IMG/VR virus record: IMGVR_UViG_3300002835_001210 | Coordinates: 1 to 22,215 of that record | Source: a virus | Direction: 5' to 3' (one strand) | Length of the DNA: 22,215 nt | Shown here: in pieces, positions 13,327 through 21,901 of the stretch | Layout of the letters: each line of letters starts with the position of its first letter | How positions within the stretch are numbered: position 1 is the stretch's first letter | Program-made: the position numbers and the translations under genes | The notes under the pieces: generated by a model | What the model saw: only the letters and a program-made list of their open reading frames with translations | Told to the model about the DNA's origin: nothing | Database searches by the model: none

Positions 13327-13830
13327 TTAAATATGTATTGTTTTATCAATCCACCAATCCTCGTAAGGCTTGCCGTCATAACATACATCAGCCTTTACAA
13401 GTTGATAACCTAAGTTATTAAGCATTTGCCTTGACCGCTCCCGGAAGTCATGACCAGCCCATTCATTGCAAAGATAGTAATCATGCTCATAAGTAATCAG
13501 GGAAAAGCGCGTTGTCTTATGTGGCAACTTGATAAGCATTTCAAATGTATTCCTTGCCGGGTCAATGTCAAGTGATAAGTATTCCACTCGTTTCGGTAGC
13601 CAGTCGAATGAAGTTGTTAAAGCATTGCCGATGATTAAACGGTTCTTTCTGGTTTGTTTCCACAGTTCTTGGCATTGGTTATCTATGTCAATGCTTATTC
13701 CATCCCATCCGTTCTGCTCAAGTAGGTAGGTATTGGAAATGTTTATCGGATGGCTTGCTCCTATTTCAAGATAGTAGCCCTGTTTGATGTGGCTTAACAC
13801 CCATTCGTCTTGTCCGGCTTGGCTATACAT
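13327..13830 (-). CDS. FkbM-like SAM methyltransferase
   Basis: A 167-residue protein with hallmarks of FkbM-family methyltransferases: SQAGQDEWVLSHI at the start, the SAM-binding GYYLEIGASHPINISNTYLL (about residues 18-37), and the acidic GISIDID strand end near 45-50 that would bind the ribose. The family usually O-methylates sugars or glycan substituents. It overlaps the GT9-like gene by 8 bp and stands 2 bp before the small terminase gene, so it is embedded in the phage operon. The substrate is unknown; a glycan built by the adjacent glycosyltransferases is a natural guess. It is shorter than many FkbM enzymes (about 200-260 residues) but the core is intact. Confidence 0.8.
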   Translation of the reverse strand: MYSQAGQDEWVLSHIKQGYYLEIGASHPINISNTYLLEQNGWDGISIDIDNQCQELWKQTRKNRLIIGNALTTSFDWLPKRVEYLSLDIDPARNTFEMLIKLPHKTTRFSLITYEHDYYLCNEWAGHDFRERSRQMLNNLGYQLVKADVCYDGKPYEDWWIDKTIHI

Positions 13831-14503
13831 TTATAATGGTTTCTCTCGGTTCGTTTAATGATGAACAGGTATGACCTGGGGCTTGCTCTAACCGGTAGTT
13901 TATTCCCAATCCCATCGCTATTGTACTCATGGCTGAATAACACCCTGTGAACATTTTGGCATTGTGAATTAGGTAAGCAGCTTCTAGAAATGAACAGGGG
14001 ATGAATCTAACCATCGGGCGGTTAAATATTTCCTGAAAGGTATTGTATTCGCTTTCGTATCCGATAAAGATTACATCCGGGGCCAACGTGAACAAGTAAT
14101 CGACTTCTTTTGCCCAGTTGAAATTTGGATCAGCGTAATTCGTTGTACGATTGATTACGCAATAATTAGCAATTTGGAAGTAAGCAGGTGCAGGCATCGA
14201 CTTTAACCATCCATCCTGCCATCTTTCAACCGGGATGCCCTGTCCTTTGAAATGTGCCTCAACTAAATTGTGATGATGCCCGGCGTGATCCCTGAACTTG
14301 TTTAGGTTGATGCAGTCTTCCGGTGGCGTATCAACTACCTCAACTTTTGTAATGTACGGCTGCAGACGGATAAATTCCGCTATTGAGTTGGCTCGCTGCT
14401 CATCGTACTTAGTGATGTACAACTCACCACCGCCCATCGCTTTGATGGTTGGTAAGGAAAAAATTATATCGCCTGTTGCGCCGCCGTGTGTGAATCGTAC
14501 CAT
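13823..14503 (-). CDS. GT9-like (heptosyltransferase-type) glycosyltransferase
   Basis: A 226-residue protein starting MVRFTHGGATGDIIFSLPTI, matching the glycine-rich N-terminal loop of ADP-heptose:LPS heptosyltransferase-like (GT9) enzymes. The C-terminal half has a Rossmann-like VIFIGYESEY strand, and AAYLIHNAKMFTGCYSAMST, which resembles the sugar-nucleotide binding segment of GT-B enzymes (the acceptor-site IxxA.. FxG.SG pattern of the family). It is shorter than typical GT9 proteins (about 330 residues), so the N-terminal domain is reduced. It overlaps the preceding small gene by 40 bp and the FkbM-like gene by 8 bp. Donor and acceptor are unknown. Confidence 0.68.
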   Translation of the reverse strand: MVRFTHGGATGDIIFSLPTIKAMGGGELYITKYDEQRANSIAEFIRLQPYITKVEVVDTPPEDCINLNKFRDHAGHHHNLVEAHFKGQGIPVERWQDGWLKSMPAPAYFQIANYCVINRTTNYADPNFNWAKEVDYLFTLAPDVIFIGYESEYNTFQEIFNRPMVRFIPCSFLEAAYLIHNAKMFTGCYSAMSTIAMGLGINYRLEQAPGHTCSSLNEPRETIINV

Positions 14504-14703
14504 GTGTATACTAATTTAAAAAAATCTTTAAAGCATTCTGGGCACCGTTTGTTGTAGTGATAATACTTGTCAACTCTTTCCCTGTACACCCTTAACAGTT
14601 CATCAGCCGCATGGGGTGGTATCTTTATCAACTCCCCGCACTTCTTGAATAACTCCCATTCCGGGTAATACCTTTTTATTACTTCAATATCGGCTGGTGT
14701 CAT
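14464..14703 (-). CDS. Small CPEC-containing protein (79 aa), unknown function
   Basis: From ATG 14703, which overlaps the stop of the upstream gene by 1 bp (TAATG), this encodes 79 residues; a TTG six bases upstream is a poorer start. It opens MTPADIEVIKRYYPEWELFK, is mainly helical, and has one CPEC pair in KRCPECFKDFFKLVYTWYDS, which could be half a zinc site in a dimer, or simply a redox pair. I do not recognise its function. Its 3' end overlaps the GT9-like gene by 40 bp. Confidence 0.65.
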   Translation of the reverse strand: MTPADIEVIKRYYPEWELFKKCGELIKIPPHAADELLRVYRERVDKYYHYNKRCPECFKDFFKLVYTWYDSHTAAQQAI

Positions 14704-14981
14704 TAGCAATCATCACAATTATCATTATACAATTTATCAATGATATTGATGCTTTTTTCCGCTAAGGCGGTATACTTTTCTTTCATTGATTCAATTTCTC
14801 TATCTAACTTTTCAGATAAATGTTTTACGGAATAACTATCCGCAAAAGCCATTCCTGTAATTGAATAATTCACTTTTTTAACTTCTTTTTTTTCGTACTT
14901 GCTTAACTTTAATTTAAGCTCTTCAACCTCTGCTGCTTTTTCGTTGTATTGCTCAACGATTGATTTTAATAAGTAATTCAT
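14703..14981 (-). CDS. Coiled-coil protein of unknown function (92 aa)
   Basis: A 92-residue protein with two charged helices: residues 1-35 (with EKAAEVEELKLKLSKYEKKE) and 55-88 (LSEKLDREIESMKEKYTALA), separated by a short hydrophobic GMAFADS stretch. The heptad-like pattern of Leu and Glu/Lys suggests a coiled coil. It ends NDNCDDC. The start is preceded by nine A, fitting an A-rich ribosome-binding region, and upstream lies one copy of a 45-bp direct repeat. No known family was recognised. Confidence 0.65.
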   Translation of the reverse strand: MNYLLKSIVEQYNEKAAEVEELKLKLSKYEKKEVKKVNYSITGMAFADSYSVKHLSEKLDREIESMKEKYTALAEKSINIIDKLYNDNCDDC

Positions 14982-14986
14982 TTTTT

Positions 14987-15031
14987 TTTAATTTATAAGT
15001 GATTTAAAACATTTAATTCTATACTCATTTA
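14987..15031. repeat. 45-bp direct repeat, copy 1 (left)
   Basis: Identical over 45 bp to 15275-15319. This copy is non-coding apart from supplying the TAA stop (15029-15031) of the 80-residue gene, and fills the gap in front of the 92-residue gene. Confidence 0.97.
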
Positions 15032-15271
15032 TGTTGGTCTGGTTATCCAAATTCTTGGGAAATCATCAACTTGGTTTTTTGTGTCAATTTTCCATTTATC
15101 AAACACTTCATGAATATCGTTAGTGATATCTATGCCTACTGGTTGCATTAAGCATTGCTGCAACTCTTTAATAAAATCTCGATATGCAGTCATTAAGTTT
15201 TTCCTATCTCCTTCCAAATCTCCTGTTTCCCAGTCGACAACTACCCTACCGTTTACTTGTTTGTGTGCCAT
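15029..15271 (-). CDS. Orphan gene bracketed by direct repeats (80 aa)
   Basis: An 80-residue acidic protein (MAHKQVNGRVVVDWETGDLE..., ending FPRIWITRPT) with one likely central helix (DRKNLMTAYRDFIKELQQCL). No known family is recognised. The gene is exactly framed by two copies of a 45-bp repeat: the copy before it forms the end of the glycosyltransferase gene, and the copy after it donates its stop codon. It therefore looks like a cassette inserted at the end of the glycosyltransferase gene. Recombination between the copies would remove it cleanly and leave its neighbours intact. The intact frame suggests that it is maintained. Confidence 0.65.
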   Translation of the reverse strand: MAHKQVNGRVVVDWETGDLEGDRKNLMTAYRDFIKELQQCLMQPVGIDITNDIHEVFDKWKIDTKNQVDDFPRIWITRPT

Positions 15272-15274
15272 AAA

Positions 15275-15319
15275 TTTAATTTATAAGTGATTTAAAACAT
15301 TTAATTCTATACTCATTTA
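15275..15319. repeat. 45-bp direct repeat, copy 2 (right)
   Basis: Identical to 14987-15031, with copy starts 288 bp apart. In this copy the sequence is coding: on the minus strand it gives the last residues (NEYRIKCFKSLIN) and stop of the glycosyltransferase. Confidence 0.97.
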
Positions 15320-16271
15320 CTTTTTTCATTCTAAACTGTTGCGCCCATTCGTATAATCTATTCCCCATTTCTGTTGCTGCATTTCTATGATTCAGTATTA
15401 GATTTACATACCTGAACCAATCGCCCTGACGTTCCACATAAAAAACTGGCGGATCGAAATCTAAATACGGATTAACCTTTGAACAGATTACAGGTATTTT
15501 TTTCGCTGCCGCTTCCAATAACTTTAGATTAGACTTCATCGTGTGCCACTTACTATCTTCCAACGGTAGTAGTAAGCAATCGGCATGGTTGAAGTGGTTC
15601 ATGTATTCCGTTACCGGTAGCGAAGGTAGTACTAAACCGGGTATCTTAAGTGAACAAGTGAAAGAACTTACCATTCTATCCCAGCATTGCTTGGTTACTT
15701 CATTCGAGTAAGAATAGCCTCCAATTACTGTGCTTATCCCTTTCAGGCTTGATATTCGTTTCATCGGGTACCTAAGTATTTCCATGTCGTTTACATGACT
15801 TATCCCGCCGGCCCAGAATAATCTAAAGCTATCCGATTCAATTCTTTCTTCCGTGTACTGATCTTCGCCAAACTGTATAGCGTTTGGGATTACCTCTACA
15901 TTCCTGTTAAACTGAAAGCATCTATCCGCTAACCTGTCATGTGTTACGGTTACTAAATCAGCATTCCGGATATTGTTTTCTATTCTTTCCCGAAGTTCTA
16001 CGTAAAGCTCGTAATTCAAATGAGCAGGAGGAAGCACCCAATCATCGTCTAAGTCAACAACTATCTTTGCACCTGTGATATTCCTGACGTTTTCAAGGTC
16101 ATGATCTATTCCTGCAATCCGATTGAATAGAATAATATCCCATCCCTGCTCCAGTACACCCTCTTGTATGTCGTTAGTAATATACCTCGTTCCGGGTATG
16201 TATGCTAATGGATTCCAAACCCGATGATAACCGCACCCACTTTCTCTATCTGATAGTCCAAGTATTCTCAT
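15276..16271 (-). CDS. GT-B (GT4-like) glycosyltransferase
   Basis: A 331-residue protein with GT-B architecture. The N-terminal domain begins MRILGLSDRESGCGYHRVWN, has DLDDDW at residues 73-78, and THDRLADRCFQFNRNVEVIP before the linker. The C-terminal domain has FRLFWAGGISHVNDME and, near residue 250, KSNLKLLEAAAKKIPVICS, which corresponds to the donor-binding K-x-LEA-A-x-PVI segment of GT4-type enzymes. It likely transfers a sugar from a nucleotide donor to an unknown acceptor. The last 13 codons lie within the 45-bp repeat. It overlaps the membrane protein gene by 4 bp. The phage may use it on virion protein, modified DNA or host surface glycan. Confidence 0.82.
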   Translation of the reverse strand: MRILGLSDRESGCGYHRVWNPLAYIPGTRYITNDIQEGVLEQGWDIILFNRIAGIDHDLENVRNITGAKIVVDLDDDWVLPPAHLNYELYVELRERIENNIRNADLVTVTHDRLADRCFQFNRNVEVIPNAIQFGEDQYTEERIESDSFRLFWAGGISHVNDMEILRYPMKRISSLKGISTVIGGYSYSNEVTKQCWDRMVSSFTCSLKIPGLVLPSLPVTEYMNHFNHADCLLLPLEDSKWHTMKSNLKLLEAAAKKIPVICSKVNPYLDFDPPVFYVERQGDWFRYVNLILNHRNAATEMGNRLYEWAQQFRMKKVNEYRIKCFKSLIN

Positions 16272-17186: not shown

Positions 17187-17423
17187 TCAATCCCCAAAAC
17201 CACTAATCCAGCATTTTAAAGAACTTGGATTGAAGCAGTTCAATGGATAGCTTTCTTTGGTAGCTCGGTAAACCTTACCTACTCTTTTTTTAAAGAACTC
17301 GCCACGTACGGTGGCGTAATCAAATCCTGTTTCTTTTTCGATCTGTCTTATGCTCATGCCTTTGGCCCGGAGTTCACGTATCTTGATACGGACAGCGTTT
17401 GAACCAATTACCATCTTACCCAT
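17187..17423 (-). CDS. Small HTH protein (78 aa)
   Basis: A 78-residue basic protein with a clear helix-turn-helix: KIRELRAKGMSIRQIEKETG then FDYATVRGEFFKK (residues about 14-47), as in Hin/resolvase-type or transposase-like HTH domains. It likely binds DNA as a small regulator. The rest is short and ends CWISGFGD. It overlaps the DnaA-like gene by 8 bp (ATGGGTAA), so the two are probably made together. A second ATG at codon 4 is possible. The region downstream (17095-17186) is a promoter region, so this gene may end the early operon. Confidence 0.72.
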   Translation of the reverse strand: MGKMVIGSNAVRIKIRELRAKGMSIRQIEKETGFDYATVRGEFFKKRVGKVYRATKESYPLNCFNPSSLKCWISGFGD

Positions 17424-17760
17424 AAATCATATTTTTAAGAGTTATGTAATGCTTTTTCGTTTCGGGTTCTGAAAATTCTAAATCTGAATAAAGTTTTTTG
17501 TAGTGGATTACGGTCGTGTGATCTCGGCCTCCTAACTTATCTCCTGCGTCTTTTAAAGTTATTCCGTTTTCCAGCATCAGCTTGGCGGCGTACATTCGGG
17601 CTGTAACAAATCTGTTATGCCTTAATTTCGACTTAACAAGAAAAGTGGATAGGTTGAAATAATCACATACCGTTTCCAGTATTTCGTCTGCTTTTACTTT
17701 TTTGGCTGCTCTTGACTTTGCCGGTATTTCAACAAATCCGCAGCATGGGCAAATTTTCAT
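17416..17760 (-). CDS. Free-standing DnaA domain IV-like protein
   Basis: A 114-residue protein. Residues 25-95 match the C-terminal DnaA-box-binding domain of DnaA: ILETVCDYFNLSTFLVKSKL, then RHNRFVTARMYAAKLML, and the signature GGRDHTTVIH at 77-86, whose residues contact the DnaA box. The AAA+ ATPase domain is absent. The N-terminus adds MKICPCCGFVEIP, a possible metal site with C4, C6 and C7. It may recruit to or compete for origin sites, or act as a transcriptional regulator; both are inference. The start follows an ACCTTAAAAT leader. It follows the 49-residue gene by 3 bp. Confidence 0.85.
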   Translation of the reverse strand: MKICPCCGFVEIPAKSRAAKKVKADEILETVCDYFNLSTFLVKSKLRHNRFVTARMYAAKLMLENGITLKDAGDKLGGRDHTTVIHYKKLYSDLEFSEPETKKHYITLKNMIYG

Positions 17761-17957: not shown

Positions 17958-18938
17958 TTAAATTAAAGATATTTGATGCACTTTTTTAAACCTATTTGAA
18001 GCCGTTTTTAAATTTTCAATACCTTGCTTATAATAACTATCTTTTAATTCAATGCCAATAGCTTTCCTACCCATTGAAACCGGGCTATAAACTTCGCTAC
18101 CAACTCCACCAAAAGGGGTTAAAACCGTTTCACCTGCGTTGCTGTAAAGTTCTACTATCCTATCAATTACGTCTAACTGCAATGGATGTACGTGTTTTTC
18201 GTCATCTTCTTCTTTGGTGTCTTTAAATGGCAATACATTATCAATCCTGATATCGTCCCAAACCGATGAAGCGTAACGCTGCCAAATTAAATGACTCATT
18301 TTGTTTTCTTTTGGATCACCTTTAAAGTTTTTCCATTTTGTTTTAAAATCTTCGTAATTGCCATACGTTTCAATGTGAGCAGGCAAAAAAGGTGTTTCCC
18401 CAAAGTATTCATTTAATCCAAAAGGATGAATTACTGGAACTTCGCTATCGCCATTTCTTGTAAATATCAAAACGTAATCAGGCATGGCAGTAAAACAACG
18501 TGTAGTATCTTCAACGATAAACTTGTGCATCAAGCTTTGCACCATTGTTCGCATACGAACCTTTAGCGGCTCTTTCCAAACTGTTATCCTGTTGCGATAA
18601 TGGAAGCCATATTTTTCATGAAGCCTAATTATTTCATGCGGAAAATCCCAAAGGAAAGAACGGTTATCAAATACATCCGTACAATGTACTGCGTTTATTC
18701 TACCCGGCTTTGTTACTCTTGCCATTTCAGCAACAAGAAATTCGTACTGCTGTAAAAATTGTTCTTTGCTTTCGCAGTTACTAAAATCATTTTCATGACT
18801 GCTGTAATTATACAGCCCTGCAAAAGGAGGAGAATAAACAACTAAGTCAATACTGGCATTTGGCAAAGTTGGAAGCACGTACATACAATCGCTGTTATAC
18901 CATGCGTAATCTTCGGTAACAATTTGTTCTTTAATCAT
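17958..18938 (-). CDS. DNA methyltransferase (N6-adenine or N4-cytosine class)
   Basis: A 326-residue type II-like amino-methyltransferase. Catalytic motif IV, SPPF, is at residues 36-39 (SIDLVVYSPPFAGLYNYSSH), and the SAM-binding FxGxG-type motif I lies near residue 285 in ETVLTPFGGVGSEVYSP, followed by GIELKDSYYKQG (motif X-like). Motif IV before motif I gives a beta-type order. The SPP variant suggests N4-cytosine, but N6-adenine is not excluded. It probably protects phage DNA from restriction. No restriction endonuclease is seen beside it. It follows the SNF2 helicase gene by 5 bp. Confidence 0.88.
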   Translation of the reverse strand: MIKEQIVTEDYAWYNSDCMYVLPTLPNASIDLVVYSPPFAGLYNYSSHENDFSNCESKEQFLQQYEFLVAEMARVTKPGRINAVHCTDVFDNRSFLWDFPHEIIRLHEKYGFHYRNRITVWKEPLKVRMRTMVQSLMHKFIVEDTTRCFTAMPDYVLIFTRNGDSEVPVIHPFGLNEYFGETPFLPAHIETYGNYEDFKTKWKNFKGDPKENKMSHLIWQRYASSVWDDIRIDNVLPFKDTKEEDDEKHVHPLQLDVIDRIVELYSNAGETVLTPFGGVGSEVYSPVSMGRKAIGIELKDSYYKQGIENLKTASNRFKKVHQISLI

Positions 18939-18943
18939 TTTTT

Positions 18944-20335
18944 TTAGTTTATAAAGTTTGGTAATTTAATTTCTTTGTTAAATGCTTTTTTGTCAATAAT
19001 AAAAGTAGAGTTTGTTTGTTTGGTAAGATTTTCAAACATGGTAATAGCTTTGTCCTTTTTTACCATAAGACTTTCCATTATTCGAGTTTGACCATCGGAT
19101 AAAATCAAATCTACGTAAACATTTCTTTTTTGCCCAAATCTCCAAAATCTTCTTATTGCCTGATAATACTGCTCATAAGAATAAGTTGGGAAATATGTAG
19201 TATGATTGCAATGCTGCCAATTTAAACCAAATGCCGTGATAGATGTTTTCGTTATTAGCTTTTTAATTTCACCATTTGAAAAAGCTAACAGAATTTCCTC
19301 CTTTTCGTCAACATTCATTTTACCTTTTACTTCTTTGGTATCTTTATCCAGTTTAGAAATTAAATCGGCTTCATCATTTAGGTTTACCCAGTAAACGCTT
19401 ACATCGTGTTTACTGGCTTTTTCAAAAGCCATTTCACAACGCTGCGTAATTGTGCTTCTAACCTCTGCCTTTATTTCAAAAAAGTTTTGAGCGGGCAAAG
19501 CGAATAGGCTATGCTGCCCATTTATTGCTAAAGGGTTTTCATTCCTGATAATAGTTTCAACTTCATGCAATTCTGGTAAAATGTGCCTATCGTCATTGTA
19601 ACCTAAATCGGAAGGCTTACGCATAGAAATTGACCACGAAGCGATCCACCGCCAGAAGTCTTTTTCGGCATGGGCTTTTAAATACCAATCAACACCCTCC
19701 CTTGCTTGAGCAATGCGACCAATCTTTACAGTATTGTTATTATTATTCTTAAAAAACTTTGTCAGCATATCCGTATAACCTAAATATCCCAACGCCTCGC
19801 TACTTGTACCAAGTTCTATAAAGTCGTTTGGCGAAGGAGTGGCTGTAAAAAGAAAACGATACTTTACTTTTCGTAGAAAGTTTGTTACCTGCTGCTTTAT
19901 TGCTCCATCAAAGTTTTTTAAAATACTACTTTCGTCCAATAAAACACAATCGAAATCAGCAGAATTAAAATTATCTAATCTTTCATAATTGCAGACAACA
20001 ATTTTTGTTTTATACTTCCCATCTTTTGAATAAGAAATATCATCAATTCCAAACTTTTCAGCCTCTTTGATAAATTGAAATGCTACAGCCAAAGGAGTGA
20101 TGATTAATACTGGTTTATTTGTATCCTGTATGTAATTTTTAGCAATAACTAATTCAATAATTGTTTTCCCAAGTCCTGTGTCTAAAAATACTGCGCATCT
20201 TCCTTTTTTAATAGCATATTCAGCTACGTGCTTTTGGTAATCAAACATCGCATCTGGGATAAAATTTGGCTTTATGCCGTAATCTACTTGCGTATGCTTC
20301 TTTGATTCTAAAAATTCTAAATAATCATTTTTCAT
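18944..20335 (-). CDS. SNF2-family helicase
   Basis: A 463-residue superfamily 2 helicase. Walker A DTGLGKT lies at residues 52-58, the Walker B DESS box near 132, motif III FTATPSPND near 163, and motif VI-like QAIRRFWRFGQKRNVYVD near 388-405. This is the SNF2-like set, with an inserted linker between the RecA lobes. It probably translocates on double-stranded DNA and works in phage replication or recombination, or in the action of the neighbouring methyltransferase and nuclease. It is preceded by AAAACCTAAAAAATG and sits 3 bp after the VRR-NUC gene. It is smaller than most host SNF2 proteins, as usual for phage forms. Confidence 0.88.
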   Translation of the reverse strand: MKNDYLEFLESKKHTQVDYGIKPNFIPDAMFDYQKHVAEYAIKKGRCAVFLDTGLGKTIIELVIAKNYIQDTNKPVLIITPLAVAFQFIKEAEKFGIDDISYSKDGKYKTKIVVCNYERLDNFNSADFDCVLLDESSILKNFDGAIKQQVTNFLRKVKYRFLFTATPSPNDFIELGTSSEALGYLGYTDMLTKFFKNNNNNTVKIGRIAQAREGVDWYLKAHAEKDFWRWIASWSISMRKPSDLGYNDDRHILPELHEVETIIRNENPLAINGQHSLFALPAQNFFEIKAEVRSTITQRCEMAFEKASKHDVSVYWVNLNDEADLISKLDKDTKEVKGKMNVDEKEEILLAFSNGEIKKLITKTSITAFGLNWQHCNHTTYFPTYSYEQYYQAIRRFWRFGQKRNVYVDLILSDGQTRIMESLMVKKDKAITMFENLTKQTNSTFIIDKKAFNKEIKLPNFIN

Positions 20336-21318: not shown

Positions 21319-21901
21319 ATTGTTTCATTCGTGTAATCCATCCGGCGGCGGCGGCTTTCCAGTTTTGCATTTTGTTTTTACCGACCTTCCATCCGTTACT
21401 TTCGTAATGGTTTATGAATAATTGTGCTTGTGCCATTGCTGTAAAATCGTCTAACTTTTCCGCCATGACCTTTACTACATCGTCAATTTCGGGCGGGGCG
21501 AAATTCTTTTTTTCTAAAACAGGTTTGTAATTTGGTTGATGTATTTCTGGAACGCAGGACGTAAGTCCTATATTCTCATTTACATTTACATTAGCATTTA
21601 CATTAGCATTTACATTAGCATTAGCTTGCCTCTCGCTTTTCTTTTGCTTAGGTTTCGCTTCGGTTTCGCTTCGCGTTTGCTTATTTTTTTGCTTGTTGCC
21701 ATTTATAAACCGTTGATGATTAGCATCTAACTGTGGTTTTATAAGTGTAAAGAAACCCAACGGAACACCTGTTAAATCGGGTTCAAGATGGTTCAAACTG
21801 TAGTTGAATATAGCATTATACACCTCTGCCTGTATCTCCAAGTCAAGCGTTTGTATAGATTCATAAAAGCTGCGGTAAAAGATTACGCTATCTCTTTTCA
21901 T
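21254..21901 (-). CDS. Replication protein, DUF6291-like, with repeat linker
   Basis: A 215-residue protein with two conserved ends. Residues 1-65 (SVIFYRSFYESIQTLDLEIQ and later LGFFTLIKPQLDANHQRFING) match DUF6291-like phage proteins. Residues 145-200 hold FINHYESNGWKVGKNKMQNW followed by KAAAAGWITRMKQYDN, the segment found at the C-terminus of Bacteroidota phage replication initiators. Between them lies a Lys/Gln-rich stretch and an Ala-Asn/Val-Asn repeat encoded by eight CATTWR hexamers. It probably recruits the host replicative helicase to the phage origin, by inference. It starts 14 bp inside the first gene of the operon. Its low-complexity linker may vary in length between isolates. 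Confidence 0.72.
   Translation of the reverse strand: MKRDSVIFYRSFYESIQTLDLEIQAEVYNAIFNYSLNHLEPDLTGVPLGFFTLIKPQLDANHQRFINGNKQKNKQTRSETEAKPKQKKSERQANANVNANVNANVNVNENIGLTSCVPEIHQPNYKPVLEKKNFAPPEIDDVVKVMAEKLDDFTAMAQAQLFINHYESNGWKVGKNKMQNWKAAAAGWITRMKQYDNGKQKLGTSAARMEALRNW
21577..21624. repeat. Hexanucleotide tandem repeat
   Basis: Eight contiguous hexamers of CATTTA or CATTAG (48 bp). Read on the minus strand they are Ala-Asn and Val-Asn codon pairs in the replication protein. Unit changes keep the frame. Confidence 0.97.

Follow-up and report, generated by a model that had tools for sequence, protein, structure and literature searches.

An 80-residue orphan gene between perfect 45-bp direct repeats in a phage operon, probably gained together with a duplication of its neighbour's 3′ end

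Genes flanked by short direct repeats at operon junctions have been described in mycobacteriophages. In Island3, gene 67 and the following gene 68, an orphan of 85 residues, have copies of a ∼60-bp repeat at their 3′ ends, and Brujita has one copy (Pope et al. 2011, PMC3029335); gain versus loss was left open, and recombination at short boundary sequences was pointed to (PMC3029335). In LRRHood, genes 43 to 46 lie between 29-bp direct repeats, of which Cali has a single copy (PMC3029335). In T4-type phages, regulatory DNA repeated at gene junctions (PeSLs) is proposed to aid gene shuffling (PMC4503421). We analyzed a related junction in IMG/VR record IMGVR_UViG_3300002835_001210, a 22,215-base part of the genome of a phage of uncultivated bacteria; we refer to this stretch as the window. 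As in Island3, a small orphan follows a gene whose 3′ end is repeated at the orphan's far side, and a relative has a single copy; however, the Island3 copies have diverged and both encode protein in the same frame, whereas the window copies are identical and the second is non-coding except for the orphan's stop codon. In the Island3 record itself, the ends of the two genes match closely, with 17 consecutive bases identical, this run ending where stop and start codons overlap at the next gene. The likeness to LRRHood is that extra genes lie within direct repeats, one where the upstream gene ends and one before the next gene, but LRRHood has four genes on 1.35 kb, one of known function (a repressor), and the window has one 80-aa orphan. 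In the window, as in those two phages, the gene is absent from a close relative, and the repeat includes the upstream 3′ end and is single in that relative. Judged from these comparisons, the window case is of the same kind as Island3 and LRRHood, but younger-looking and better polarised.

A repeat search of the window returned a direct repeat matching at 45/45 positions, with a start-to-start distance of 288, which was by far the longest repeat present (Table 1). Since the longest exact repeats in 50 shuffles of the window reached 13 to 17 bp at most, the 45-bp repeat is not a product of chance. In gene direction (minus strand), the glycosyltransferase gene ends in copy 1 and is followed by TTT, the orphan ATG and the 80-codon ORF, whose TAA stop is formed by the first three bases of copy 2; AAAAA and the coiled-coil ATG at 14981 come after copy 2. 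The sole ORF inside copy 2, which is intergenic apart from the orphan's stop, is an 11-codon micro-ORF. A sequence-only reading of this DNA had described a perfect 45-bp direct repeat around an 80-residue gene, a stop codon supplied by the other repeat copy, and a repeat that is coding in one copy and non-coding in the other, all of which we found to be correct, with the orphan's stop as the exception to the last point. It had also taken the repeat as the last 45 bp of the glycosyltransferase gene and placed the orphan ATG 4 bp from copy 1. The 3′ end is indeed repeated, but the gene ends at 15276, so that the repeat comprises 44 nt of the gene and 1 downstream base; the ATG is likewise close to copy 1, but at a spacing of 3 nt.

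Table 1. Features of the repeat-bracketed junction (window coordinates).
Feature	Position	Strand	Content or role
Repeat copy 1	15275..15319	minus	Final 44 nt of the glycosyltransferase gene with its stop, plus 1 nt; orphan leader
Orphan gene	15029..15271	minus	80 aa; present in the window phage only
Repeat copy 2	14987..15031	minus	Stop codon of the orphan, then intergenic leader of the coiled-coil gene
Glycosyltransferase gene (phrog_7162)	15276..16271	minus	331 aa; upstream neighbour, 3′ end duplicated
Coiled-coil protein gene	14703..14981	minus	92 aa; downstream neighbour
Net insertion of 288 bp compared with the sister	14987..15274	minus	243 bp of new DNA and the duplicated 45 bp
p81	14464-14706		Next conserved gene after the glycosyltransferase gene in outgroups

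Searches with the glycosyltransferase and the coiled-coil protein identified one close relative, the 33,254-base contig IMGVR_UViG_3300032322_000760 (the sister), which is colinear with the window and encodes a glycosyltransferase and a coiled-coil protein with 97% and 89% amino acid identity, respectively. At the sister's junction, the glycosyltransferase gene, TAA, AAAAAA and the coiled-coil ATG follow one another without an orphan. The 45-bp sequence is single there and matches at 42/45 positions, and at each of the three differing positions the two window copies have the same base. A relative with precise absence of the gene and one copy of the 45 bp, which had been named beforehand as a check, was therefore found, and the proposal that a small gene was inserted with duplication of its neighbour's end is supported by the sister's lack of 288 bp at the junction. 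This sister is the one close relative that covers the junction; two further close relatives with 98% terminase identity, the contigs L007 and L008, begin downstream of it. Because the window is a single metagenomic contig, a wrong join during assembly might be suspected as the source of the second copy, but the flanks match the sister unbroken on both sides, the repeat is short against usual reads, and the intervening ORF is complete and coding-like; we give such an artefact next to no probability.

We then compared ∼30 outgroup loci with terminases 40 to 50% identical, in which the glycosyltransferase gene abuts or overlaps the next conserved gene, p81, and neither the orphan nor the coiled-coil gene is found at the junction. 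As the end of the glycosyltransferase gene overlaps p81 in outgroups, the coiled-coil gene, too, was probably acquired later, within the clade of window and sister. Since the outgroups are without the orphan, its gain in the window lineage takes one event, and its loss in the sister takes two. Deletion between direct repeats would yield exactly the sister's single-copy structure, so that the bracketed gene could in principle be old and have been lost there by recombination between the 45-bp copies. We consider this unlikely, because an earlier gain would be required in addition to the loss and because the copies are still identical despite a synonymous divergence between the two genomes of ∼0.25 per site in the glycosyltransferase gene (0.15 to 0.45 in neighbouring genes). 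Copy 2 is mostly non-coding yet unchanged at this divergence, which argues that it is younger than the split between window and sister; for a copy 2 as old as the split, several changes would be expected, and the estimated chance of zero changes is ∼0.001 if neutral and up to 0.08 under gene-like constraint. Gene conversion between the copies could mimic youth, and we therefore take their identity as support for a recent age and not as proof.

The three bases shared by the window copies further suggest that copy 2 was most likely made from the recipient phage's own DNA and not from that of a diverged donor. They also bear on homologous recombination with a phage that already had the orphan beside the same boundary sequence, a route favoured for LRRHood and one of two considered for Island3 (PMC3029335). 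Such an exchange is distinctly unlikely here, given that copy 2 equals copy 1 at 45/45 positions, including the three at which the sister differs, and that the viral contig collection contains no exact match to the repeat's 29-base core. On balance, it is probable that, after the split, 243 bp of foreign DNA with one small gene was joined at this junction in the window lineage and that 45 bp of the phage's own sequence was duplicated in the process.

From the structure of the junction we infer a molecular route, a selective reason for retention, and deletability. The joining was most likely illegitimate, by recombination of a template-switch or staggered-end type, the illegitimate routes being about equally probable among themselves. 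Copying would have followed the phage template to the end of the 45 bp, continued across the foreign gene, and returned to phage sequence 45 bp upstream, at the TAA. The only homology the insert could have offered at the re-entry point is this TAA, perhaps the orphan's own stop codon. The 45 bp duplicated by this back-step would be both the glycosyltransferase 3′ end and the leader from which the following gene is translated, so that the duplication would keep the glycosyltransferase intact and provide a leader for both the orphan and the coiled-coil gene. The product may have survived because its neighbours kept working and the new gene received a leader, with no special enzyme needed. Homologous recombination between the copies would cleanly delete the orphan and restore the arrangement of the sister; because the sister has exactly this orphan-less arrangement, removal without harm is plausible.

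The sequence-only reading had further proposed a gene-cassette site, and this proposal was not supported. No relative whose locus was compared has a different gene bracketed by the 45-bp repeat at the junction, apart from the sister's diverged single copy the repeat was seen at no other locus and in no other viral contig, and gene indels elsewhere in the relatives are mostly repeat-free. Gene-sized indels (n = 35) were compared among the terminase relatives. Four gene-junction indels separate window and sister: the orphan, with its 45-bp repeat; a methyltransferase-helicase pair in the window (2,421 bp), whose repeat measures 13 bp by exact match and 16 by BLAST overlap; and two genes of the sister, one for RNase H with a 7-bp repeat (AAATGAG) and one of 86 aa with a 14-bp repeat (AATGAAAATACTCG), the flank upstream of the latter having diverged too. 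Exact repeats of at least 12 bp occurred in 3 of the 35 indels, against a null of 0.6% among gene ends, and the window's was the only one above 16 bp. Overlapping BLAST pieces gave the appearance of many repeats at indels, which we rejected as mostly A-rich chance overlaps after inspection and simulation, with simulated gene insertions producing BLAST overlaps of at least 16 bp in 7.5% of cases.

The relatives contain 13 exact direct repeats of at least 18 bp, compared with 0.4 in shuffles, and both copies fall at a gene boundary in 14 of 47 repeats of at least 15 bp (2.9% expected), an excess that stems partly from paralogous gene ends (L040, L057) or terminators (L026). Window-like structures were seen in L042 (28 bp), L074 (17 bp around a 48-aa gene) and L080 (19 bp around an 87-aa gene). 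In L042 (1148-2038), small genes are surrounded by two copies of a 28-bp gene-end sequence that finishes in ATGA, with three occurrences of its 19-bp core, and the stop codon of the last gene lies inside the repeat, as for the window orphan. That relatives' exact repeats of at least 17 bp are often at gene ends, and that the other window/sister junction indels have shorter repeats (13 to 16, 14 and 7 bp), form the basis for reading the duplication of a gene end and leader as a preferred entry of new genes into the packed operons of this phage family, a reading we hold to be unlikely. Because a single indel of the 35 exceeds 16 bp and the gene-end repeats are in part paralogous ends or terminators, the 45-bp duplication reads as the trace of an individual event and not as a dedicated site.

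Signals of mobile elements were sought at the repeat and among the genes. The repeat search showed no inverted ends at the 45-bp repeat, and no transposase or integrase was found among those window genes that were scanned against families, or on visual inspection of the longer ORFs of the sister, in agreement with what had been noted at the outset. The 45 bp folds no better than shuffles, and no Rfam family was found at the repeat. No promoter excess was detected there with sigma-70 patterns, and no promoter or terminator pattern of the insert's own was seen, the host's promoter type falling outside such a scan. One ORF so precisely bracketed could also point to a dedicated mobile cassette, or to an ultra-small transposable element, whose recombination site lies in the 45 bp; with neither inverted ends nor a recombinase among those genes, no second occurrence of the repeat or the orphan, and no such signature at other gene-sized indels, we regard it as very improbable. 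Three known types were considered and rejected. MPMEs resemble the insertion in being small (439 bp) and recognised in phage genomes by relatives' empty sites, but they have terminal inverted repeats and recur identically, neither of which was seen in the window. An integron-type cassette site lacked a structured site, gene exchange at the repeat, and a recombinase among the scanned genes. PeSLs share the placement of repeated DNA at gene junctions but consist of promoter and stem-loop motifs at high density, whereas the 45 bp, with folding no better than that of shuffles, was found at no other junction, the promoter scan being of sigma-70 patterns.

The orphan ORF looks coding, because its codon-usage score was +11.5 in frame, while three other frames scored −14 to −53, and just 0.16% of shuffles kept a frame of this length open. 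No relatives were found in viral contigs, species-representative genome contigs, phages, plasmids, Pfam, PHROGs or PADLOC, where the scans of contig collections with this single protein reach close relatives and more distant ones may exist. Structure prediction from the single sequence was unusable (pLDDT 47.6). Like a moron, the orphan is an extra gene between genes that are adjacent in the sister, but its base composition is not unlike that of the phage, with a GC content of 0.362 versus 0.387 for the window and a range of 0.33 to 0.45 for other genes. Judged by position, it may be grouped with accessory genes beside the glycosyltransferase gene.

We also noted other features of the two contigs. 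The glycosyltransferase gene, p81, and genes of 226 aa and 167 aa without family matches (13327-16271, minus) form a conserved block next to the terminase in many relatives. The methyltransferase-helicase pair (17958-20335, minus) encodes a DNA methyltransferase (N6_N4_Mtase) and a DEAD/SNF2-like helicase on 2.4 kb, is precisely absent from the sister, and is bracketed by AAAACCTAAAAAA (13 bp exact). Elsewhere in the window are a protein of 114 aa that has a DnaA C-terminal DNA-binding domain but lacks the length for the ATPase (17416-17760, minus), and a 12-bp tandem repeat encoding an Asn-Ala-Asn-Val run (21572-21619). In the sister, the extra RNase H gene (L004:788-1345) sits at an ATGA gene overlap with AAATGAG on both sides, and the 18-bp TACAAAGCACACAGATAA is present twice, once ahead of the gene and once forming its final codons. 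The sister's extra 86-aa gene (L004:3323-3583) precedes the glycosyltransferase gene, the first 13 bases being common to both genes, and the end of the gene upstream was exchanged too. An alanine/tryptophan-rich repetitive protein of the sister (L005:15405-15941, minus) has WAAWAA-like motifs and 9-base DNA repeats.

Gain and loss of repeat-bracketed genes is an already described route in phages, and the window case adds one more example. Here the empty site, the filled site and the duplicated leader are all readable, and the direction can be argued from outgroups. With it, the few published mycobacteriophage cases, in which the direction was left open, are joined by a clean one from an unrelated phage group.
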